Assembly: GCA_020433455.1 (NCBI GenBank) | Contig: JAGRCP010000036.1 | Coordinates: 4,407-48,048 of the forward strand | Origin: Caldilineaceae bacterium | Lineage (GTDB): Bacteria > Chloroflexota > Anaerolineae > Caldilineales > Caldilineaceae | Direction of reading: 5' to 3' | Length of the DNA stretch: 43,642 bases | Shown: positions 235 to 15,242 of the stretch, piece by piece | How positions within the stretch are numbered: position 1 is the first letter of the stretch | Layout of the letters: every line of letters starts with the position of its first letter | The notes under the pieces: generated by a model | Told to the model about the DNA's origin: nothing | The model's database searches: none | Seen by the model: only the letters and a program-made list of their open reading frames with translations | Translations under genes and position numbers: made by a program

Positions 235-1488
235 TTAGACTGTCTGGCCGTCGGCGACGATGCCGTCTGCGGGGAAGGCATCCTCATCCCGGTTGCTGTT
301 GATGAGGACGTTGCGGCCGATCTTGGCCCGGTCCGGTATGACGGCGCTCTTGCCGATGACCGTGATGCCCGCGTAGAGGCGATCGGGCAGCAGTTCGTTG
401 GGTACGCTCATGTCGCCTGTGCCGACGATTGCGCCGGCCCCGACCATGACCTGCTTGTCGATGACCACCTTCTCCAGGTGCGCGCCCGGCCCGATCCATG
501 CGTCGTTCATGACCACGCTGTCTTTGACCACCGCGCCCGGACTGACGTAGACGCCGGGGCTGAGCACGCTGTTTTCCACCGCGCCCCGCACCACGCAGCC
601 GTTGGAGACCATGCTGCGGGTAATTTTGCCCTGGGGGCCCAGCTTGACGGCCGGCCGTTCTTCCGAGCGGGTATGAATGGGCCAGCGGTCGCCGTAGAGG
701 TCAAGCTGGGGCTCATCTTCCAGCAGGGCCAGATTGGTGGACCAGTAAGCGTCCACCGTCCCCACGTCAACCCAGTAGCCCTTGAATGTATAGGCGTAGA
801 CCTTGTCTTCGGCTTCCAGCATGGCCGGAATGACGTCATGGCCGAAATCGACCCGGGTCTTGCCGTCTGCATCGACCAGGCGGCGGGCCAGGGTGCGGGC
901 GTCAAAAATGTAGATGCCCATGGAGGCCAGATTGCCTTTGTCCCGCTCTTTGGGCTTCTCGTAAAACGCAGTGATGCGGTCCTCTTCCCCCACTTCCATG
1001 ATTCCGAAGCGATGGGTCTCCTCCAGGGGCACGGGCATGACGCCGATAGTCAGGTCAGCGCCCTTGCTGCGATGGAACTCGATCATGGGCCGGTAGTCCA
1101 TCTTGTAGATGTGATCGCCTGAGAGGATGAGGACGGTGTCGCCCCGATTTTCTTCAATAAAGTTCAGGTTTTGGACGATGGCGTCGGCCGTGCCGCCGTA
1201 CCACTGCTCGCCGCGGCGGCCCTGATAGGGCTGGAGCAGGCGCACGCCGCCCCGACTGCGGTCCAGGTCCCATGGCTTGCCGATGCCGATGTGGTCGTTG
1301 AGGCTGTGGGGGCGGTATTGGGTAAGAACGCCCACCGTGTAGATGCCGCTGTTGACGGCGTTGCTGATGGGGAAATCGATGATGCGGAACTTGCCGGCAA
1401 AGGGGACTGCCGGTTTTGCCCGTTCCTCAGAGAGGACGGTCAAACGCGTACCTGCGCCGCCGGCCAAAATCATGGCAATGGTTTTCAT
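235..1488 (-). CDS. glgC: Glucose-1-phosphate adenylyltransferase (ADP-glucose pyrophosphorylase)
   Basis: Makes ADP-glucose from glucose-1-phosphate and ATP, the committed step of bacterial glycogen synthesis. The protein is 417 residues, the usual family length. The nucleotidyltransferase signature GGAGTRL lies at residues 10-16 with catalytic R15, followed by AKPAVPF with K25. The middle carries [18 protein letters not shown] and GIMEV, which form the glucose-phosphate and ATP sites. The C-terminal third is a left-handed beta-helix ([20 protein letters not shown] and later hexapeptide turns). I chose ATG at 1488 over an upstream start at 1596 because it begins directly at the Rossmann strand ([11 protein letters not shown]) and has AGAAGGG upstream. 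A catalytically altered paralogue follows 14 bases downstream, suggesting a two-subunit enzyme. Confidence 0.95.
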
Positions 1489-1575
1489 AGGCGCTGCCCT
1501 TCTGGTGATGTGTTGTGGTGGGCGAACGAGCCGACCGAAAAGTAAGTTCGGCGTAACCGGCGCATCCTGCCTCCT

Positions 1576-1604
1576 ATTGTAAATGATCCGCTGCAATCCG
1601 TAAA
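1576..1604 (-). promoter_or_regulatory. Predicted sigma-70-type promoter of the glgC pair
   Basis: On the minus strand, TTTACG (1604-1599) and TACAAT (1581-1576) are separated by exactly 17 bases. Transcription would start near 1569 and give a leader of about 80 bases before glgC. The -35 box matches consensus at 4 of 6 positions and the -10 at 5 of 6. Confidence 0.5.
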
Positions 1605-1620
1605 GAGTTTTGCGACAGAC

Positions 1621-1645
1621 GATGCGTGAACATTTGATGCGTGAT
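1621..1645. repeat. Short intergenic repeat with GATGCGTGA words
   Basis: Two copies of GATGCGTGA (1621-1629 and 1637-1645) flank ACATTT. A related stretch, ACGTGACTTGTGATGCGTGA, lies at 1819-1838 in the same intergenic gap. The same vocabulary recurs at 14558-14620 and 18732-18766, always between genes. The function is unknown. Apart from these words and the two promoters, the 1489-1917 gap shows nothing else I recognise. Confidence 0.5.
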
Positions 1646-1693
1646 TCCGGCCGAGCCCAAAAAATTTCGTTGTCCGGATTTGGCTATAATATT

Positions 1694-1721
1694 TTGAGAA
1701 TCTCTGCACCACTGGTATAAT
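1694..1721 (+). promoter_or_regulatory. Predicted extended -10 promoter for the 1918 gene
   Basis: TTGAGA (1694-1699) and TATAAT (1716-1721) are 16 bases apart. TG one base before the -10 (TGGTATAAT) makes it an extended -10 element. Transcription would begin near 1728, leaving a leader of about 190 bases before the GTG start at 1918. A second TATAAT at 1685-1690 lacks a convincing -35. Confidence 0.55.
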
Positions 1722-1917
1722 TGGCGTTTGCCATGGTGCGTCGTTGTCGGCGCGCCGGGCGTATTGTCGTTCTTTATCAGAGTGACTCCTGCGGAATTCA
1801 CGTGGTTCGCTTTCTGAAACGTGACTTGTGATGCGTGACGAAGCGTTCCTTCACGGATCAGTCGATCGCATGAAATCCGGTTTAACTATCAGACCTAAAT
1901 AAAACGAGGGGGAAAGC

Positions 1918-3510
1918 GTGCTGCAACGACCGACCCAAACAGCAGCCTTTTGGCGCGATCAATTCGAGGTCACATCCGATGATCTGGAATTTTTGTATAA
2001 TCTGCTGTTGGATGCGCAGGCGCCGAAAAGTCGGGAAGACCTGGCCGTTGCGTTGGCGGGTGAGTATCTCCGCCGGGAGAACGCAACGATTGAAACCGAG
2101 CTTGCCAAGGGCGATATTTATCTGCCCAAAGAGAGTTATGCGGAGGGCCAAACCCTGGTCTTTCCCGCCCTGGACTTTGCGGTCGGCGACGTGCTGTCGG
2201 TGCGCGACGGCCAAAATCCCGAACACGGCAAATTTGACGTCATCGCGGTGCAGCTGGCGGGAGAAGACGCGCCCCGGGAATTCGCCGCTGCTCTGCAGAC
2301 GCCCCATCGCCTGAGCGAAGGCGGCGGCAACGTACTGCTGGATGACGGCGCGCTCCTTTCCGCTGAGGAAATCTACTCGCTCTATAATGACGACATCGAT
2401 GACAGCCTCCTCTTTGCGCTGGAAGAGGGCAGCCGGCGTGAGGATTTCGTGGAGGTGGAGGCGCAGTGGCTGCTGGCCGACATGCTGGCGGAAGTCCACA
2501 TCGGCCATCTCAATATTGCCGAGGCGCTCATCGAAGTCGCCGGCCATCCTCTGTCCGCTCAAACCATGCTCGGCGATCTGGATTTGGATGAGAATGTGCC
2601 CAAAACCATGCGCCTCATCAGCCTCAACCATGCCTTGAATAAGGACAAGCGCTTCGACACGGTTGAAAAGGACGGCCGGACGCTGTGGTACCTCAAACGC
2701 ATGGAGCCCGAGGTAGTCGGCACGACGCCTGCTCTGCTGCGCTATACGCCCGTTCCTTACAATCGCTCGCTCCTCAGCGTTGAGATGCTGCAACTGGAGT
2801 GGGAGCTGGATGACGAGTGGGGCGAAAGCAGCATCGTCGGCGACGTACCTGCGCTGGTGCCCAGCACCAGCTTTACCCTCATCTATCCCCATCGCAAATA
2901 CGGTACGATTCCCCTGTCCAGCCGCACCAAGAGCTTTTTCCCCCGGCAGGAACGGGGCAAGTCCCTGGTGACGTTGGTTGACGGACGCTGGGGCACCAGA
3001 TACGAAGGCTGGGTCGCGCATCAGGGCCGCTATGTTTCCGGGCTGGGCAAGTGGATGGATGACCATGAGCTGCCCGTGGGCGCCTACATTACGCTGGAGC
3101 GCGCGGAGCAGGGAAACGAGTTGATCATCGACTTTCGCACCCGCCGGGCCAAGCGCGAATGGGCCCGGGTCGCGACGGCCGATCTGGAGACCATGCGCCT
3201 CACTTTTGACATGAACAAGGTGAAGGTCGCCTGCGAATATGACGATACCCTGATCGTAGCTGAAAGCGATCCCCAGGCTCTGGCCCAATTGCGTCAGGCC
3301 ATGGAGAGCGCCGACGATAATTTGGCGCCGTTGGTGGAGCAGATCGTGCGCGAATTAACGGGCCTCAATCCCCAGGGAACGGTTCACGCCAAGAGCGTCT
3401 ACAGCGCGGTCAACATGGTGCGACGCACGCCGCCGGGCCCGGTTTTCTATGCGCTAATCAGCAACCCGAGGTTTAAGGATGTAGGCGGCGGTCTGTTCGC
3501 CCTGGCATAG
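1918..3510 (+). CDS. Uncharacterised 530-residue protein with a HARE-HTH-like C-terminus
   Basis: I do not recognise a named family for the full length. The start is GTG at 1918, preceded by GAGGGGG at good spacing. The N-terminal 60 residues look helical ([12 protein letters not shown]), followed by a beta-rich segment (residues about 75-110) and a long mixed, acidic region. There is no signal peptide or membrane segment, so it should be cytosolic. The last 60 residues end in [15 protein letters not shown] after a helix pair. In HARE-HTH winged-helix domains the same pattern (small-residue turn, PRF.KVG.G.FAL) closes the fold, so DNA or RNA-polymerase association is possible. The next gene also ends in a winged-helix-like segment. 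The two probably act together; that is inference from adjacency and architecture. Confidence 0.75.
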
Positions 3511-3533
3511 CGACATTGAATTGACCAATCTCC

Positions 3534-3587
3534 CAATCTCTTAATCTCCTTAAATCCCGCCGTGAGATTAAGGAGATTGAGAGATTG
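3534..3587. repeat. AATCTC-family palindrome between the two unknown genes
   Basis: Arms of 20 bases (3534-3553 and 3568-3587) pair at 19 positions around a 14-base loop. The arms are built from the words CAATCTC, TTAATCTC and CTTAA. No T-run follows on the plus strand, so it is not a standard terminator. It may stabilise or separate the two transcripts. It belongs to the same family as 4070-4126, 4621-4662, 5993-6081 and 15168-15242. Confidence 0.75.
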
Positions 3588-3608
3588 CCTTCATAAAAGG
3601 AGTACCCC

Positions 3609-4043
3609 ATGAGTTTAGCTGCCGGCCGGTTGGCCCGCTTTCGCCCTACGGTGGAGAGTAAATTTCACATTGATTACGACTGGTGGGAGAAGAGCGGCCG
3701 CGACTTCCGCCTCTACCTGCGCGATCAACTCTGCGAGGAGTGTCGCGAGCGCTTTTCCGACCACACAAACACGGAAGATGTGGATTGGGTGAACCCCGAA
3801 ACGGGCGAAGTGCGGCGCACCGACGCGCTGCGCGAGTGTCTGCGCATGCGCTGCGCCAACGATCCCGATTACATCAACGAGCGGCTGCCCGTGGCCTCGG
3901 CCGTCTTTCGCATCTTTCTGGCCAACAACAACGCCCCGCTCTCGCCCACTGAGCTGAGTCGCCTCATGCCGTGGCGCTCGGCCGACTCCATCCTCAACAC
4001 CATCGGCGGCCAGCGGACGTACCTGGGCCTGCGACCGACATAA
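3609..4043 (+). CDS. Uncharacterised 144-residue Cys-containing protein
   Basis: No named family recognised. The start ATG at 3609 has a strong AAAAGGAG eight bases upstream. The first half is aromatic and charged (FHIDYDWWEKSGRDFRLYL) and contains four cysteines, C42-x2-C45 and C77-x4-C82, a spacing that could hold a zinc or other metal. The second half (residues about 98-144: VFRIFLANNNAPLSPTELS, then SADSILNTIGG) reads like a small winged helix. No signal peptide or membrane segment. It follows the 1918 gene on the same strand, separated by a palindromic repeat, and is followed by a likely terminator. A nucleic-acid-binding role is plausible but only inferred. Confidence 0.75.
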   Translation: MSLAAGRLARFRPTVESKFHIDYDWWEKSGRDFRLYLRDQLCEECRERFSDHTNTEDVDWVNPETGEVRRTDALRECLRMRCANDPDYINERLPVASAVFRIFLANNNAPLSPTELSRLMPWRSADSILNTIGGQRTYLGLRPT

Positions 4044-4069
4044 CGGACCATCTGTCCGGGCAGATCATC

Positions 4070-4132
4070 AATCGCCTAATCGCTTAATCTCACGTTGCGA
4101 AATCGAGATTGAGCGATTAGGCGATTTTTATT
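4070..4132 (+). terminator. Likely intrinsic terminator built from an AATCGC-family palindrome
   Basis: Arms 4070-4091 and 4105-4126 (22 bases, 21 paired) are followed on the plus strand by TTTTTATTT. The stem uses the words AATCGCC, TAATCGC and TTAATCTC, related to the 3534 palindrome. It would end transcription from the 3609 gene. On the minus strand there is no T-run. Confidence 0.65.
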
Positions 4133-4156
4133 TCTGATTATTGATGCACTTTCCGC

Positions 4157-6748
4157 CTACTGAGACGCGCACGCAGCCGGATTGAGCGCGCAGGCCTGGT
4201 CGGGCGTTCGGGGCCGGGCAACGGTGATGCGGCCTATGGTCGCCTCGTTGCCGGCGCCGTCGGCCAGCGCGGCGCGTTCGCCGGTGGCTTCATCGTACAG
4301 GCCTACGACCACCGACCATTGGGTTCCCGCCGCGGCAGAGGCGGGCAGGGGCAGTTGTCGCCAATCGGGCGCAATGCCGTCACGCGCCAGTGCCGCATCC
4401 GCGTCATACGCGCCAAAATAGCGGGGCAGCCCGTCGGCCTGGACCTGCTCGCCGTTTGGCCCGCGCAGATGAACAAAGACGGTCATCCCGACCGGCCAGG
4501 CGTCGCCTTCCCACCACAGCCGCACATCCACCGGATCGCCCGGCGCGTAGTCCCGTTCTACGATGGCGCCGCGCAGGCTAATCCCCTGCCCGCCACCCAC
4601 AAACGCCATCGGCGCCCCAGTCTCTCCAATCTCTTCAATCTCCCTGATCTCTCCAATCTCCCCATCCTCACCGCGTCCATACGCGCCCGCCAACTCCTCC
4701 CCCTCTCCCATCACCGTCACCACGCCCCAATCCCTGGGCAAGGTCAACGGCAGCGTGGTCACAGTGATCTCCTCGCCCGGTTGCCATTCCTCGGCCGGAT
4801 ACCAGAGAAGCGCGGGCGGCGTCAGCTGCGCGGAAGAGTAGATGACCTCGCCGCTGGGCGTGCGGATCTCCAGCCCCGGCGCATCCGTCGCCGGATCGTA
4901 CTCCGCGCCCGCCGTCCACGTGACACTGACCCGGCTTTGCCGCCAGCGGGGCCAATCCTCCACGCGCACATTGCTGACGCGGAGGGGCCCATCTGACGCG
5001 GCGGATGGGGCCTCGGTTCGGGCAAAATCGTAGAACTCGCGGGGAATGCTCTTTTGCGGCGCGCCCTTGTGCAGGAGCAGGAAGCCGTCGGCCGCATCAA
5101 CCACGCCCCACTCGCCTGCCAACATGGCCTGAACCTGGGCGTAGAGATCGCCCGGAGCCATGTCGGTGTTGGCGGTTACGTCCAGCAGGGCCCATTCCGC
5201 ATTGCCCAATAGGGGCGCGGTAGCGTCCAGCCCCGTGGGAAACTGATAGACGTAGCGCCGATGGCTTACGTGGGGGTGGACGGCCGCGGTGGCGGTAACG
5301 GCCGCATCAGGCGGAATCTGATCCACGAAGCGGGCGAGGAGGCGATGGTGTGCGGTGACGGGCGTCGGGTCATAGCGCCCGCCCAGGGGGCCGCGGCCGT
5401 AGCGGAGATAGCCGACGCCCGCCCAGCTCAGAATCCAGATGCAGAGTGCGGCCGCGAGCAGGGGACGCAAGGCGGTGCGGGCATTGGTGAAGAGGGAGAC
5501 CGCGGCCATGGTTCCCGTGCGGGCTGCGGGTAAATGCTGAAACGCAGCGGATGAACCCTCTGTGCGCCGGGCCAGCATGCGCCAGATCCGGCTTGCGCCC
5601 AGGGCCGCGGCCGCGCCTGCATAGGCGATGAGGGGCGCGCTGTAGTGAAATTCGCCGTAGTACTGGGCGGGGTAGGCGCTGAGCAGATTGGCCAGAAAGA
5701 GAGGCAACCCAATCAGGAGCAGCTCAGGACCCAGGAGGCTCAAAAAGCCGAAGGCCATGAGCAGACGCAGCGTATAGTTCACCCGGGCCGGTTCGACGGC
5801 GATCTGCCGGACCAGTCCCGGCTGGGTGAAGATGCTCCGCACCATCTCCGCCGGCGAATTCCCCAGCGCGCCGTAACGCTGAAAATAGCCGCTCTCGGCC
5901 ACGCCATAGACCTCCGCCGCGTGGGCCGGCACGATAACGAAGGTCGCCAGGTAAAACCAGACGAGGGCAGCAATCGTAACAAAAGCAGGGATGATTAAAG
6001 ATTGAAGATTGAAGATTGGTAGAGTACCTTCCCGGGACGCCCTCTGCCCAATCTTCAATCTTAAATCTTCAATCTTAAATCTTATCATCGCCCACACGCC
6101 CAACCCGGCAGCGGCCAGGGCCATTTCTTCCTTGACAGCCGCCAACAGAAGCGCGGCAGCGGCAAATTGCGCCAGGCGCCGGCGTTCAATGCTGAGGAGG
6201 GCCCACAGGATCAAGGGCGCGGCCAGGGGCGCGGCGTGAAATTCGGTGAGAAGCGCGGATTGGAGTTGGGGCGCAAGCAGATAGGCCGCGGCCAGGGCCA
6301 GCCCAATCGGTCGGCTGAGGGCGCGCAGCGGCTCTCTGCGCCAGACGTAGTCACGTTCGTTGGGCGGAATGCTCTTGTCGAAAAGGGCGAGGGTCAGCTC
6401 GTAGAGGAGCCAGGCGCCCGCGGCGACGAAGAGGGCTTGCAGCAGCAGAATGGCCCGGGTGTCGTTCCAGAACCAGTAGATCGGACTGATGAGGGCCAGA
6501 ATGGGCTCCACGTGATCGCTCATGCGGGTGGCCAGATAGCCGTTATCGGTCATCTCCACAAAGCGGCCCCGGCTGGAATTCCAGATGGCCTGGTCGATCT
6601 GGCCCAGGTCGGCTTTGTGGGTGCGCATGCCCGCGTGGAGCCGCCACGCCATGCCGGTGAAGATGCTGACGTAAAGGAGCATGAGCGCCGGCAGGACCAG
6701 ACGATAGCCGTCGCTCCGTTGGCGTATGGCGGTTGCGAGGCGGGACAT
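4157..6748 (-). CDS. DUF2079-type polytopic membrane protein with C-terminal beta-sandwich
   Basis: A large (863 residue) integral membrane protein. The N-terminus carries the DUF2079 pattern: a first membrane helix, then HKADLGQIDQAIWNSSRGR and later DHVEPIL. About ten hydrophobic segments follow to residue 440. DUF2079 proteins resemble GT-C glycosyltransferases in topology, but their substrate is unknown. The soluble C-terminal half includes a beta-sandwich (PGDPVDVRLWWEGD, VFVHLRGPNG, VVVGLYD) often seen attached to GT-C-type proteins in Chloroflexota. The start codon overlaps the stop of the DegT aminotransferase gene by one base (TGATG), so translation is coupled. Two palindromic/tandem repeats sit inside the gene (4621-4662 and 5993-6081) without breaking frame; the second adds a charged patch between two membrane helices. 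Confidence 0.85.
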   Translation of the reverse strand: MSRLATAIRQRSDGYRLVLPALMLLYVSIFTGMAWRLHAGMRTHKADLGQIDQAIWNSSRGRFVEMTDNGYLATRMSDHVEPILALISPIYWFWNDTRAILLLQALFVAAGAWLLYELTLALFDKSIPPNERDYVWRREPLRALSRPIGLALAAAYLLAPQLQSALLTEFHAAPLAAPLILWALLSIERRRLAQFAAAALLLAAVKEEMALAAAGLGVWAMIRFKIEDLRLKIGQRASREGTLPIFNLQSLIIPAFVTIAALVWFYLATFVIVPAHAAEVYGVAESGYFQRYGALGNSPAEMVRSIFTQPGLVRQIAVEPARVNYTLRLLMAFGFLSLLGPELLLIGLPLFLANLLSAYPAQYYGEFHYSAPLIAYAGAAAALGASRIWRMLARRTEGSSAAFQHLPAARTGTMAAVSLFTNARTALRPLLAAALCIWILSWAGVGYLRYGRGPLGGRYDPTPVTAHHRLLARFVDQIPPDAAVTATAAVHPHVSHRRYVYQFPTGLDATAPLLGNAEWALLDVTANTDMAPGDLYAQVQAMLAGEWGVVDAADGFLLLHKGAPQKSIPREFYDFARTEAPSAASDGPLRVSNVRVEDWPRWRQSRVSVTWTAGAEYDPATDAPGLEIRTPSGEVIYSSAQLTPPALLWYPAEEWQPGEEITVTTLPLTLPRDWGVVTVMGEGEELAGAYGRGEDGEIGEIREIEEIGETGAPMAFVGGGQGISLRGAIVERDYAPGDPVDVRLWWEGDAWPVGMTVFVHLRGPNGEQVQADGLPRYFGAYDADAALARDGIAPDWRQLPLPASAAAGTQWSVVVGLYDEATGERAALADGAGNEATIGRITVARPRTPDQACALNPAACASQ
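4621..4662. repeat. AATCTC-word tandem repeat inside the DUF2079 gene
   Basis: The plus strand reads as repeated CCAATCTC/TTCAATCTC/CCTGATCTC units. On the coding (minus) strand this gives the low-complexity peptide GEIGEIREIEEIGETG in the linker between the membrane part and the beta-sandwich. The same words make up the intergenic palindromes nearby, so this is best read as a repeat that landed in a tolerant linker. Confidence 0.7.
5993..6081. repeat. In-frame palindromic repeat inside the DUF2079 gene
   Basis: Left arm 5993-6019 (GATTAAAGATTGAAGATTGA and on) and right arm 6048-6081 (CCAATCTTCAATCTTAAATC and on) are inverted copies made of GATTGAA/CAATCTT words around a core of about 28 bases. 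In the coding frame the stretch encodes a charged segment (IRFKIEDLRLKIGQRASREG and following residues) between two hydrophobic helices, so it lengthens a loop rather than destroying a helix. Confidence 0.75.
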
Positions 6749-7869
6749 CAGGGCAGCAGCTTATCCAGCGCTTCGGCCGCGCGTTGGATATCGCGCGTCT
6801 CCAGCAGGGGGTGGAGGGGCAGGGAGAGGATCTGGGCGGCGATGGTCTCGGTGACGGGCAGGGCCAGATCGCCGAAGAGGGACGCGTAGGCGGGCTGGCG
6901 GTGAACGGGCACGGGATAGTGGATGGCCGTGGCGATGCCCTGCTCGGCCAGGGCATCGCGCAGCGCGTCCCGGCTCATGCCCGCTTCGGACGGAATGCGC
7001 ACCACGTAGAGGTGATAGACGTGATAGTTTCCTGTACCTTCCGTCGGACGGATGAGGACCGGGGGCAGGAGTTGGTCGTAACGCGCCGCCAGGGCGCGCC
7101 GGCGCTCGTTCCACTCATCCAGCAGGGGCAATTTGACCCGCAACAGCGCGGCTTGCACTTCGTCCAGGCGGCTATTGGTCCCTTCAATCTGAGAAACGTA
7201 ACGCTCTGCGGGCGTCCAGCCGTACTCCCGCAGGCGGCGGACGCGTTCGATCAACTCGGCGTCACGGCTGACGACCGCGCCGCCGTCGCCCAGCGCGCCC
7301 AGATTCTTGGTAGGGTAGAAGGAAAAGCAGCCCAGATCGCCCAGCGTGCCTACGATTTGACCGTGATAAGCGGCCCCGTGAGCCTGGGCGCAATCCTCGA
7401 TGACGCGCAAGCCATGCGCCTGGGCCAGGTTGAGCACCTCGTCCATCGTCGCGGCCTGGCCATAGAGATGCACGGGGATAATGGCCCGCGTGCGGGGCGT
7501 GACCCGCGCGGCCGCGTCCTGTACGTCCAGCGTAAAGGTCGCGGGGTCGATGTCGGCCAGAACCGGCGTTGCGCCTGCATTGCGGATAGCCGCGACCGTG
7601 GCCACCGCGGTGTGGGAGACGGTGATGACCTCGTCGCCCGGACCGATGTCGCAGGCGCGCAGGGCCAGGCTCAGCGCGTCGGTGCCCGAATTGACGCCCG
7701 CGCAATCGACCGCGCCGCAATACGCGGCGAATTCCTCTTCAAAAGCCCGGCACTCCCGGCCCAGAATATACCAGCCCGAAGCCAGCGCGCGTTGCGCCGC
7801 AGCGTCCAATTGAGCCTGGAGCGCGGTGTATTGGGCTTTGAGATCGTTAAAGGGAAGGGGCGCTGACAT
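6748..7869 (-). CDS. DegT/DnrJ/EryC1/StrS-family sugar aminotransferase
   Basis: PLP-dependent aminotransferase of about 373 residues that moves an amino group onto a keto-sugar nucleotide. The family hallmarks are visible: GVNSGTDALSLAL (residues 58-70), VIEDCAQAHGA for cofactor binding, and the Schiff-base lysine K188 in FSFYPTKNLGALGDGG. The C-terminal part has the substrate-shaping NSRLDEVQAA and HYPVPVH motifs. I chose ATG at 7869, which has AGAGGAA upstream and begins directly with the family N-terminus (PFNDLKAQY); an upstream TTG at 7920 would add 17 unconserved residues. It lies between an SDR epimerase and a DUF2079 protein in one operon, pointing to an amino-deoxy-sugar for a surface glycan. 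The exact sugar cannot be told from sequence. Confidence 0.9.
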   Translation of the reverse strand: MSAPLPFNDLKAQYTALQAQLDAAAQRALASGWYILGRECRAFEEEFAAYCGAVDCAGVNSGTDALSLALRACDIGPGDEVITVSHTAVATVAAIRNAGATPVLADIDPATFTLDVQDAAARVTPRTRAIIPVHLYGQAATMDEVLNLAQAHGLRVIEDCAQAHGAAYHGQIVGTLGDLGCFSFYPTKNLGALGDGGAVVSRDAELIERVRRLREYGWTPAERYVSQIEGTNSRLDEVQAALLRVKLPLLDEWNERRRALAARYDQLLPPVLIRPTEGTGNYHVYHLYVVRIPSEAGMSRDALRDALAEQGIATAIHYPVPVHRQPAYASLFGDLALPVTETIAAQILSLPLHPLLETRDIQRAAEALDKLLP

Positions 7870-7913
7870 ACCACGTTCCTCTTTTCTCTTTCCTTGTTTC
7901 TCGTTCGCTTTCA

Positions 7914-8906
7914 TCACCAATAATACTCACGATAGCGTCGATAATACGCAACCATCCGCGTCAACCCTTCTTCCAGGCTCGTCGTGGGGCGCCAGCCCAG
8001 AACCGCCTCGATTTTGGCGGAGCTGGAGTATACGTCGCCGATGTCGATGCGCTTGCGCGCCGCGGGCCAGGGAATCAGCTCCACCTTGCCCGTTCCCGCG
8101 ATCTTCACCAGGAGATTGGCCAGTTCCAGCAGGCTCACGGGCCCGGGACCGCCCAGGTTGTAGACCTGGCCGTTGACTGCGTCGCTTGCGCCCGCGCGCA
8201 AAAACGCATCCACCGCATCATCCACGTAGCAAAGGTCCCGCAGCTGCGAACCGTCGCCGTAGAGGCGAATGGTCTCGTCCTCCACGGCCAGGCGCACGAA
8301 CCAACCGATGAAGCCCTGGCGATTGTGGCGGGTGAGCTGGCGCGGACCGTAGATGTTGGTCAGGCGCAGGGACGCGGCGGCCAGGTCATAGGCCGTGTGA
8401 TAGACGATATGATACCACTCGCCCGCCATTTTGTTGACGCCGTTGACGTCGGTAGGGTGTTGGAGATGCTCCTCGTCCAGAGGCAGGTAGTCAGGCTTGC
8501 CGTACTGCTGGCGGGTGCCCGCGTAGATGACCTTGATATCGGGATTTTCGTGGCGGCACGCTTCCAGGATGGAGAGCTGGCTACGTGCGTTGATTTCCAG
8601 GTCGGTAAAGGGGTCTTCCATGGAGTCCAGGTGGCTCACCTGGCCGGCCAGGTTGAAGAGGACGTCCTGGCCCTGCACCAGCGCGCGCATGGAGTAGGGA
8701 TCGCGCACGTCCGCGATGTTGACGCGTACACGATCCTCATAGCCCGCGATGTTGAAGCGATTGCCGCCGTAAGCCGGAATGAGGGAATCCGCCAGCGTCA
8801 CGCGTGCGCCCAGGTCCGCCAGCCGCCGGGCCAGGTTGGAGCCGATAAAACCCAGGCCGCCGGTGATGAGGATCGATTGGTTGGTGTAGAAGTCGAGATA
8901 GGTCAT
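7914..8906 (-). CDS. Extended SDR nucleotide-sugar epimerase/dehydratase, atypical active site
   Basis: NAD(P)-binding sugar-nucleotide enzyme of 330 residues. The Rossmann motif TGGLGFIG is at residues 15-22, and the C-terminal half has RLTNIYGPRQ and GDGSQLRDLCYVDD typical of the UDP-glucose-epimerase group. The usual YxxxK catalytic pair is changed: K159 is present in DVNGVNK, but the residue four before it is Asn155, not Tyr. I recall the same NG(V/I)NKMAGEW sequence in related bacterial proteins, so it may be a family trait rather than an error. I prefer ATG at 8906; a GTG at 8939 is possible. There is no ribosome-binding site before the ATG, and a -10-like TACAAT ends seven bases upstream. 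First gene of the sugar operon. Confidence 0.88.
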   Translation of the reverse strand: MTYLDFYTNQSILITGGLGFIGSNLARRLADLGARVTLADSLIPAYGGNRFNIAGYEDRVRVNIADVRDPYSMRALVQGQDVLFNLAGQVSHLDSMEDPFTDLEINARSQLSILEACRHENPDIKVIYAGTRQQYGKPDYLPLDEEHLQHPTDVNGVNKMAGEWYHIVYHTAYDLAAASLRLTNIYGPRQLTRHNRQGFIGWFVRLAVEDETIRLYGDGSQLRDLCYVDDAVDAFLRAGASDAVNGQVYNLGGPGPVSLLELANLLVKIAGTGKVELIPWPAARKRIDIGDVYSSSAKIEAVLGWRPTTSLEEGLTRMVAYYRRYREYYW

Positions 8907-8912
8907 GCGGCT

Positions 8913-8941
8913 ATTGTATGGCAATGGGATGTGCCGCACAA
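8913..8941 (-). promoter_or_regulatory. Possible promoter giving a near-leaderless SDR transcript
   Basis: On the minus strand TTGTGC (8941-8936) is 17 bases from TACAAT (8918-8913). The predicted start of transcription falls at or next to the ATG at 8906, which would explain the missing ribosome-binding site. The -35 is weak (3 of 6). Confidence 0.3.
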
Positions 8942-15167: not shown

Positions 15168-15242
15168 GAGCGATTAGAGATTGGCGATTAGAGATTGGGA
15201 GATTGGAGCGGAGAGGGACCGCACGCCAAATCGCCAATCTCT
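15168..15242. repeat. AATCTC/AATCGC-family palindrome
   Basis: Perfect 14-base arms AGAGATTGGCGATT (15176-15189) and AATCGCCAATCTCT (15229-15242) flank further GATTAGAGATTGG and GAGATTGGAG words. It fills the gap between the deiodinase-like gene (ending 15258) and the DinB-like gene (starting 15147). The same vocabulary occurs at 3534, 4070, 4621 and 5993. Confidence 0.8.

Follow-up and report, generated by a model that had tools for sequence, protein, structure and literature searches.

What is the function of two adjacent genes that no family library used here can name and that nearly every sampled genome of the class Anaerolineae carries? The genes, here called P1 and P2, lie in a 43,642-nucleotide stretch of contig JAGRCP010000036.1 from a Caldilineaceae bacterium. 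This whole stretch is referred to as the window, and the positions of all features within it are collected in Table 1. Since 54 of the 55 class genomes sampled carry it, the pair is presumably important.

Reading frames, family searches and expression signals

The initial annotation, made from the DNA alone, described a module of two proteins of 530 and 144 residues. Both reading frames were confirmed with unchanged coordinates. Conserved homologues align with each of them, 33 for P1 (identity 42-66%) and 34 for P2 (identity 42-82%), which supports the coding status of both. The flanking genes (window 235-1596 and 4157-8939, both on the minus strand) we take to be glgC-like, large-membrane-protein-like, DegT-type aminotransferase-like and sugar-epimerase-like.

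That the module matches no family was borne out by Pfam (above cut-off), NCBIfam, PADLOC and PHROGs. In Pfam no match of P1 or P2 reached the cut-off; the best row for P1 was BAR_2 (E 0.075) and P2 had none. NCBIfam, PADLOC and PHROGs gave no row for either protein at E <= 10, and the PADLOC-DB models assigned neither to a family of a known anti-phage defence system. Across the homologues, the Pfam rows below cut-off (BAR_2, GSP_synth and WH_GDS1) were scattered over few members and were rejected, GSP_synth reaching E 0.0025 in the best of three P2s. Profile searches of the PDB returned no chain below E 0.1. Two rows were not believed: lambda Cro at E 0.11, matched by the N-terminal part of P1s from outside the class, and a Fur protein at E 0.21, the only row for P2. 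A second P1 match in the same genome (L002, E 0.06) was taken as chance because it is antisense to a long ORF, which is presumably transporter-like. In a literature search whose scope left out most subscription papers, no title among the matches listed concerned the pair.

The module appears to be expressed, as was proposed from a strong extended -10 promoter, good ribosome-binding sites and a terminator, each of which exists. The promoter sequence TGNTATAAT is conserved: of 37 loci, 17 have it in the 230 bases that precede P1 (shuffled mean 0.1, maximum 1). The 37 consist of the window plus 36 from the set of 55 class loci; many are close relatives, and in a few of them the match start is perhaps not the true start codon. 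A Shine-Dalgarno match lies within 25 nt of the P1 start in 30/37 loci, a count without a shuffled control. The terminator is a downstream hairpin followed by a T-rich stretch, and is absent from the list of a simple terminator scan. Rfam gave no match in window 1400-4300.

Two repeats were observed around the genes. Tandem 8-base units, AATCTCCC and variants, form inverted repeats at window 3526-3587, 4069-4127 and 15183-15240, the first two of which fold into strong hairpins. The triple-unit pattern has 51 matches in the genome, some overlapping (reversed control 0); it is a genome-wide repeat, some copies of which perhaps serve as terminators. The second repeat, GATGCGTGA, occurs three times upstream of P1 (window 1621-1644 and 1830-1838) and once elsewhere in the window. 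Followed by CGTGA within 20 bases, it occurs 31 times genome-wide (reversed control 0). The triple was rejected as an operator of P1 because it belongs to a dispersed repeat and is not P1-specific.

Table 1. Features of the P1-P2 locus (positions in the window; residues of the protein named)
Feature	Position	Strand	Description
Extended -10 promoter	1694..1721	+	TTGAGA, 16 nt, TATAAT with TG before the -10 box
Ribosome-binding site of P1	1906..1912	+	GAGGGGG, Shine-Dalgarno match
P1	1918..3510	+	530 aa, GTG start; multi-domain, predicted B3-like fold
P1 N-terminal helical region, residues 9-62	1942..2103	+	DSSP of AF2 model
P1 small beta domain, residues 79-124	2152..2289	+	DSSP of AF2 model, Foldseek
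P1 central winged helix, residues 192-263	2491..2706	+	VIA; present in the P1s examined from the class, from outside it and in truncated form
P1 acidic motif EWELDDEW, residues 294-301	2797..2820	+	Identical in all 34 A1 sequences
P1 B3-fold domain, residues 313-411	2854..3150	+	Foldseek and VIA on AF2 model
P1 C-terminal domain, residues 452-529	3271..3504	+	Winged-helix topology in AF2 model
Intergenic hairpin	3534..3587	+	AATCKC units, no T-run; -29.7 kcal/mol, z -6.0
P2	3609..4043	+	144 aa, ATG start; putative partner protein
P2 cysteine set C42, C45, C77, C82	3732..3854	+	Possible zinc site
P2 C-terminal winged-helix-like region, residues 92-144	3882..4040	+	VIA Z 4.1 over 48 residues; weak
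Hairpin terminator	4070..4126	+	T-rich stretch after it; -36.3 kcal/mol, z -7.5

Inheritance of the pair in Anaerolineae and its relatives elsewhere

The survey of distribution covered 400 Chloroflexota genomes, sampled evenly out of a larger group. Of these, 55 belong to the class Anaerolineae (the genome of the window included). Each of the two genes was detected in 54/55 class genomes with one match per genome, at most three P1 candidates having been scored in any genome. Both are missing only from G269, an assembly that is 97% complete. The gene-neighbourhood survey therefore found a near-perfect co-occurrence in the class. Both genes are present in 29/29 loci of a first set (L003-L031) and in 53/55 of a second, the other two (L066 and L092) being accounted for by contigs that stop inside P1. 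All 82 loci with both, of which some possibly come from one species, have P2 downstream of P1 on the same strand; the P2 profile match begins -8 to 220 bases after the P1 stop.

The distance matrices of P1 and P2 are correlated over 42 loci (r 0.85), a value reached in none of 2000 permutations. Three families were tested, with 13, 7 and 2 members, and each is monophyletic in the midpoint-rooted tree of P1 as well as in that of P2. With tblastn no match to P1 or P2 was found in plasmids or phages, nor any non-class P1 match in plasmids. Pattern-based scans of viral contigs gave no confirmed relative of either, and when P1 was compared by Foldseek with the BFVD viral structures, no row fell below 0.001. 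P1-P2 is a vertically inherited gene pair, co-inherited in the class. Its near-universal presence and conserved promoter favor a housekeeping role over one in defence.

Outside the class the two genes are found apart. The profile of a P1 alignment that includes two distant members (A4) picked up a divergent P1 in another 57 of the 400 genomes, where no P2 was detected, and P2 occurs in 34 other genomes, where no P1 was detected. The overlap of these lists is 0 against 5.6 expected (P 0.0015, indicative only because of shared ancestry). They include the weak P1 member G334 (E 4e-4, residues 190-259 only) and the weak P2 members G326 (E 3e-4) and G362 (E 9e-5). Comparison of an alignment of 21 non-class P1s (A5) with that of 34 class P1s (A1) gave a probability of 99.4% and E 5e-22 over P1 residues 146-526, which makes the homology of the two groups independent of bridging members. 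The N-terminal regions of class and non-class P1s do not align. The acidic motif EWELDDEW is not invariant in the more distant rows of A4. An acidic C-terminal tail, with 11-17 D/E within the last 40 residues, is found in 11/21 non-class P1s; examples are L168 5425-7371 and L167 5143-7023. The lineages with P1 alone, P2 alone or both provide a natural experiment on how the pairing arose.

Neighbouring genes were counted by blastp in 22 non-class P1 loci, in 16 loci fetched from the 34 with P2 only, and in the 55 class loci. Relatives near the non-class P1s were FemAB in 14, Mur ligase in 11, PIG-L in 9, ROK in 8 and YebC in 2 loci. In the 16 P2-only loci, YebC and an EF-G-like gene are together near P2 in 6, and rhomboid is near it in 5; a Macro-domain gene stands near P2 in 5 other P2-only loci. 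The arrangement of P2 near YebC and the EF-G-like gene is seen in L123 (4820-9039), L136 and four others. None of the 55 class loci has a YebC, EF-G-like, FemAB or Mur relative, and a Macro relative is near in 3. No constant neighbour partner exists among the YebC, EF-G-like, FemAB, Mur, PIG-L, ROK, rhomboid and Macro genes.

The predicted B3 fold and winged helices

The clearest feature of P1 is one that the initial annotation missed: a predicted B3-like fold at residues 313-411. The AF2 model of P1 has a mean pLDDT of 87.7 and pTM of 0.70. In a Foldseek search of the PDB, plant B3 domains were best (VAL1, E 2.3e-3, probability 1.00), followed by the B3 domains of the bacterial restriction enzymes NgoAVII and LlaJI; no row had E <= 0.001. 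With VIA the domain matched FUS3 (6j9b_A; Z 10.3, 97 residues, 2.4 A), VAL1 (Z 10.2) and ARF5 (Z 10.1), these top three at 2.3-2.6 A over 95-97 residues. The 15 best rows are all B3 domains (Z 9.1-10.3), and LlaJI.R1 reached Z 8.1. A VIA Z under 8 perhaps reflects only a common arrangement; the B3 rows lie above this value and cover the whole domain. On the model, residues 313-411 thus have the B3 pseudobarrel fold. No enzyme fold was assigned to P1 or P2 by the structure search, and no nuclease family or fold is listed for either, absence from a list being different from exclusion.

The B3 region is basic in the class, with a mean net charge of +5.1 against -26 for the whole protein in 34 class P1s. 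Among 99-residue segments scanned for charge along P1, the one starting at 313 ranks 21st of 432 and the maximum starts at 322. Two arginines of the B3 domain, R357 and R371, are invariant in A1. An excerpt of PMC4267653 describes characterised bacterial B3 domains as binding specific DNA as monomers. Given the fold and, in the class, the basic charge, P1 would be a DNA-docking scaffold whose B3-fold domain contacts DNA. Protein partners would be bound by the central winged helix, which is acidic, and possibly by that at the C-terminus: P2, as the constant small partner of P1 in the class, and perhaps RNA polymerase. P1-P2 may then be a vertically inherited operon encoding a core DNA-binding factor of the class that serves transcription or chromosome organisation. 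We regard this explanation as evenly balanced between right and wrong; the DNA binding, the P1-P2 complex and the process served are what we infer.

Confidence goes no higher because of the acidic B3 regions of relatives and of class members that have no B3 half. The B3 region of 21 non-class P1s has a net negative charge (mean -5.2), which makes DNA binding doubtful outside the class. In two class families, one genome each (L134 4717-5934 and L135 4611-5846) carries a P1 with only the N-terminal half beside P2. Their P1 ORFs of 266 and 268 aa are kept to about residue 262, the B3 half was not detected, and the P2 profile match begins 15-18 bases past the P1 stop. That P2 is kept without the B3 half counts against the core DNA-binding factor, as does the separation of the two genes outside the class, by which neither needs the other everywhere. 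The analysis found neither a P1 binding site nor a regulon, and the repeats that precede P1 are genome-wide. The fold matches come from one AF2 model, and sequence profiles recognize neither B3 nor HARE-HTH above cut-off in P1. The B3 model PF02362 gave no match over cut-off in 61 genomes, none in the genome of the window, and no row among 34 class or 5 non-class P1s; it was silent above cut-off in 14/14 control genomes too.

Winged helices had been proposed at the C-termini of both proteins. At least one winged helix is supported in P1; by fold comparison it is central (residues 192-263) and not C-terminal. VIA aligned it with the S. aureus RNA polymerase delta subunit (8x6g_E; Z 8.2, 75 residues, 3.1 A) and with the RpoE chain of 9a6y (Z 7.6, 24% identity). 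Because forkhead (FoxP4), Z-alpha and other winged helices lie within 1 Z of delta, the likeness is not specific, and the central part is best described as a predicted winged helix of delta-like fold. It is acidic in 34 class P1s (mean -8.1, range -13 to -4), mildly so in 21 non-class P1s (mean -2.0, range -8 to 1), and is kept in the truncated P1s of L134 and L135 as well as in A5.

At the C-terminus of P1 the model does predict a winged-helix topology. DSSP gives H-H-E-H-H-E-E from residue 452, or helix-strand-helix-helix-strand-strand from 469. Fold searches barely covered this stretch and listed no match for it. The more specific claim of a HARE-HTH-like end finds no support in sequence or in model. 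PF05066 matched one of 34 P1s (E 0.15) and nothing in the genome of the window; in control genomes 6/14 had matches, 3 of them over cut-off. The HARE-HTH domain has an extra helix inserted in the HTH, according to an excerpt of PMC11037411. No such helix is present in the P1 model between 214-218 and 229-242, or between 491-498 and 506-515. A comparison of the central and C-terminal winged helices with hhalign gave 48.5% probability over 17 columns, and a duplication is unproved. Residues 79-124 may form an SH3- or chromo-barrel-like domain, as suggested by Foldseek rows without printed ranges.

The P2 model has a pLDDT of 88.8 and pTM of 0.81. Its helix-turn-helix-like end survives as a weak match at residues 92-144: VIA found at most Z 4.1, which is not convincing, and none of 37 Foldseek rows was below E 0.001. 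The proposed set of cysteines, C42-x2-C45 and C77-x4-C82, is present in P2 and, since several class members lack it, is not defining. In a hand-picked set, equivalents of C42, C45 and C82 occur in 16/16 non-class P2s and in 13, 12 and 15 of 19 class P2s; that of C77 occurs in 2/16 and 11/19. A zinc site formed by these residues is plausible but would be dispensable.

Alternative readings and comparison with known systems

A broader version of the core DNA-binding factor is tentative and less likely than not. P1 could serve as a general factor of transcription or of the chromosome, in Anaerolineae as well as in other P1-bearing Chloroflexota, with a plant-type B3 DNA reader joined to a delta-like polymerase-binding winged helix.

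The pair might instead be an RNA-polymerase-associated factor whose delta-like winged helix binds polymerase while the rest modulates initiation or recycling, with no specific DNA targets. The resemblance to S. aureus delta and RpoE, the acidity of the central winged helix in the class, its persistence in class, non-class and truncated P1s, and the acidic tail of about half of the non-class P1s are consistent with such a factor. It is nevertheless doubtful: other winged helices tie with delta, PF05066 does not identify a HARE-HTH domain, outside the class the acidity of the central winged helix is slight, and the acidic tail is lacking in 10/21 non-class P1s and in those of the class.

A role on RNA or in translation, in which the winged helices and the small beta barrel bind RNA, is rather improbable. 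YebC and the EF-G-like gene near P2 in 6/16 P2-only loci, rhomboid in 5, and YebC near P1 in 2/22 non-class loci would fit it, as would a SelB winged-helix fragment and EF-P low in the P1 Foldseek list (E 0.7-1.3). However, the bacterial B3 domains described in the excerpt of PMC4267653 bind DNA, YebC and the EF-G-like gene are near none of the 55 class loci, and a Macro-domain gene takes their place in 5 other P2-only loci. A derived restriction or modified-DNA-sensing system, with the B3 domain and winged helix reading DNA marks, is suggested by the restriction enzymes NgoAVII and LlaJI being the bacterial B3 folds matched, but is very unlikely given that no nuclease family or fold is listed for P1 or P2, that across 26 class loci no neighbour cluster is common to more than 13 (save P1, P2 and frames overlapping them), that PADLOC is empty and plasmids and phages are without a match, and that near-universal, vertical inheritance is unlike that of typical defence genes.

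The core DNA-binding factor that we prefer has partial counterparts among known proteins. The winged helices at large, such as forkhead, Z-alpha and MecI, resemble that of P1 (Z 7-8, 59-72 residues), whereas the P1 domain is acidic and belongs to no recognizable family. RNA polymerase delta is similar to the central winged helix (Z 8.2), which is acidic in the class; P1 differs from delta and HARE-HTH proteins in having no PF05066 match and no extra HTH helix in its model, and its length is roughly three times that of the RpoE chain (173 residues). R.NgoAVII and LlaJI.R1 share with P1 a B3 fold in a bacterial protein. Unlike them, P1 has no recognized nuclease, and its distribution is near-universal and vertical and not defence-like.

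The plant B3 domains (VAL1, FUS3, LEC2 and ARF) have a fold like that predicted for P1 residues 313-411 (Z 9-10, about 97 residues), at 12-20% identity and with no Pfam B3 match in P1. In contrast to them, P1 is bacterial, with a winged helix before the B3 domain and a winged-helix-like end after it. On its model we rate P1 as a protein with the B3 fold, distinct both from the plant factors and from any recognizable restriction enzyme. The model offers a testable starting point, a bacterial B3 fold beyond those of restriction enzymes. According to an excerpt of PMC2688026, one proposal derives the plant B3 factors from the transfer of a bacterial EcoRII-type endonuclease gene, and because of this proposal a housekeeping bacterial B3 protein would bear on the question. 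If the broader reading is true, P1 would be such a non-restriction protein and a candidate for a link in how the plant B3 domain arose, which is a matter of debate.
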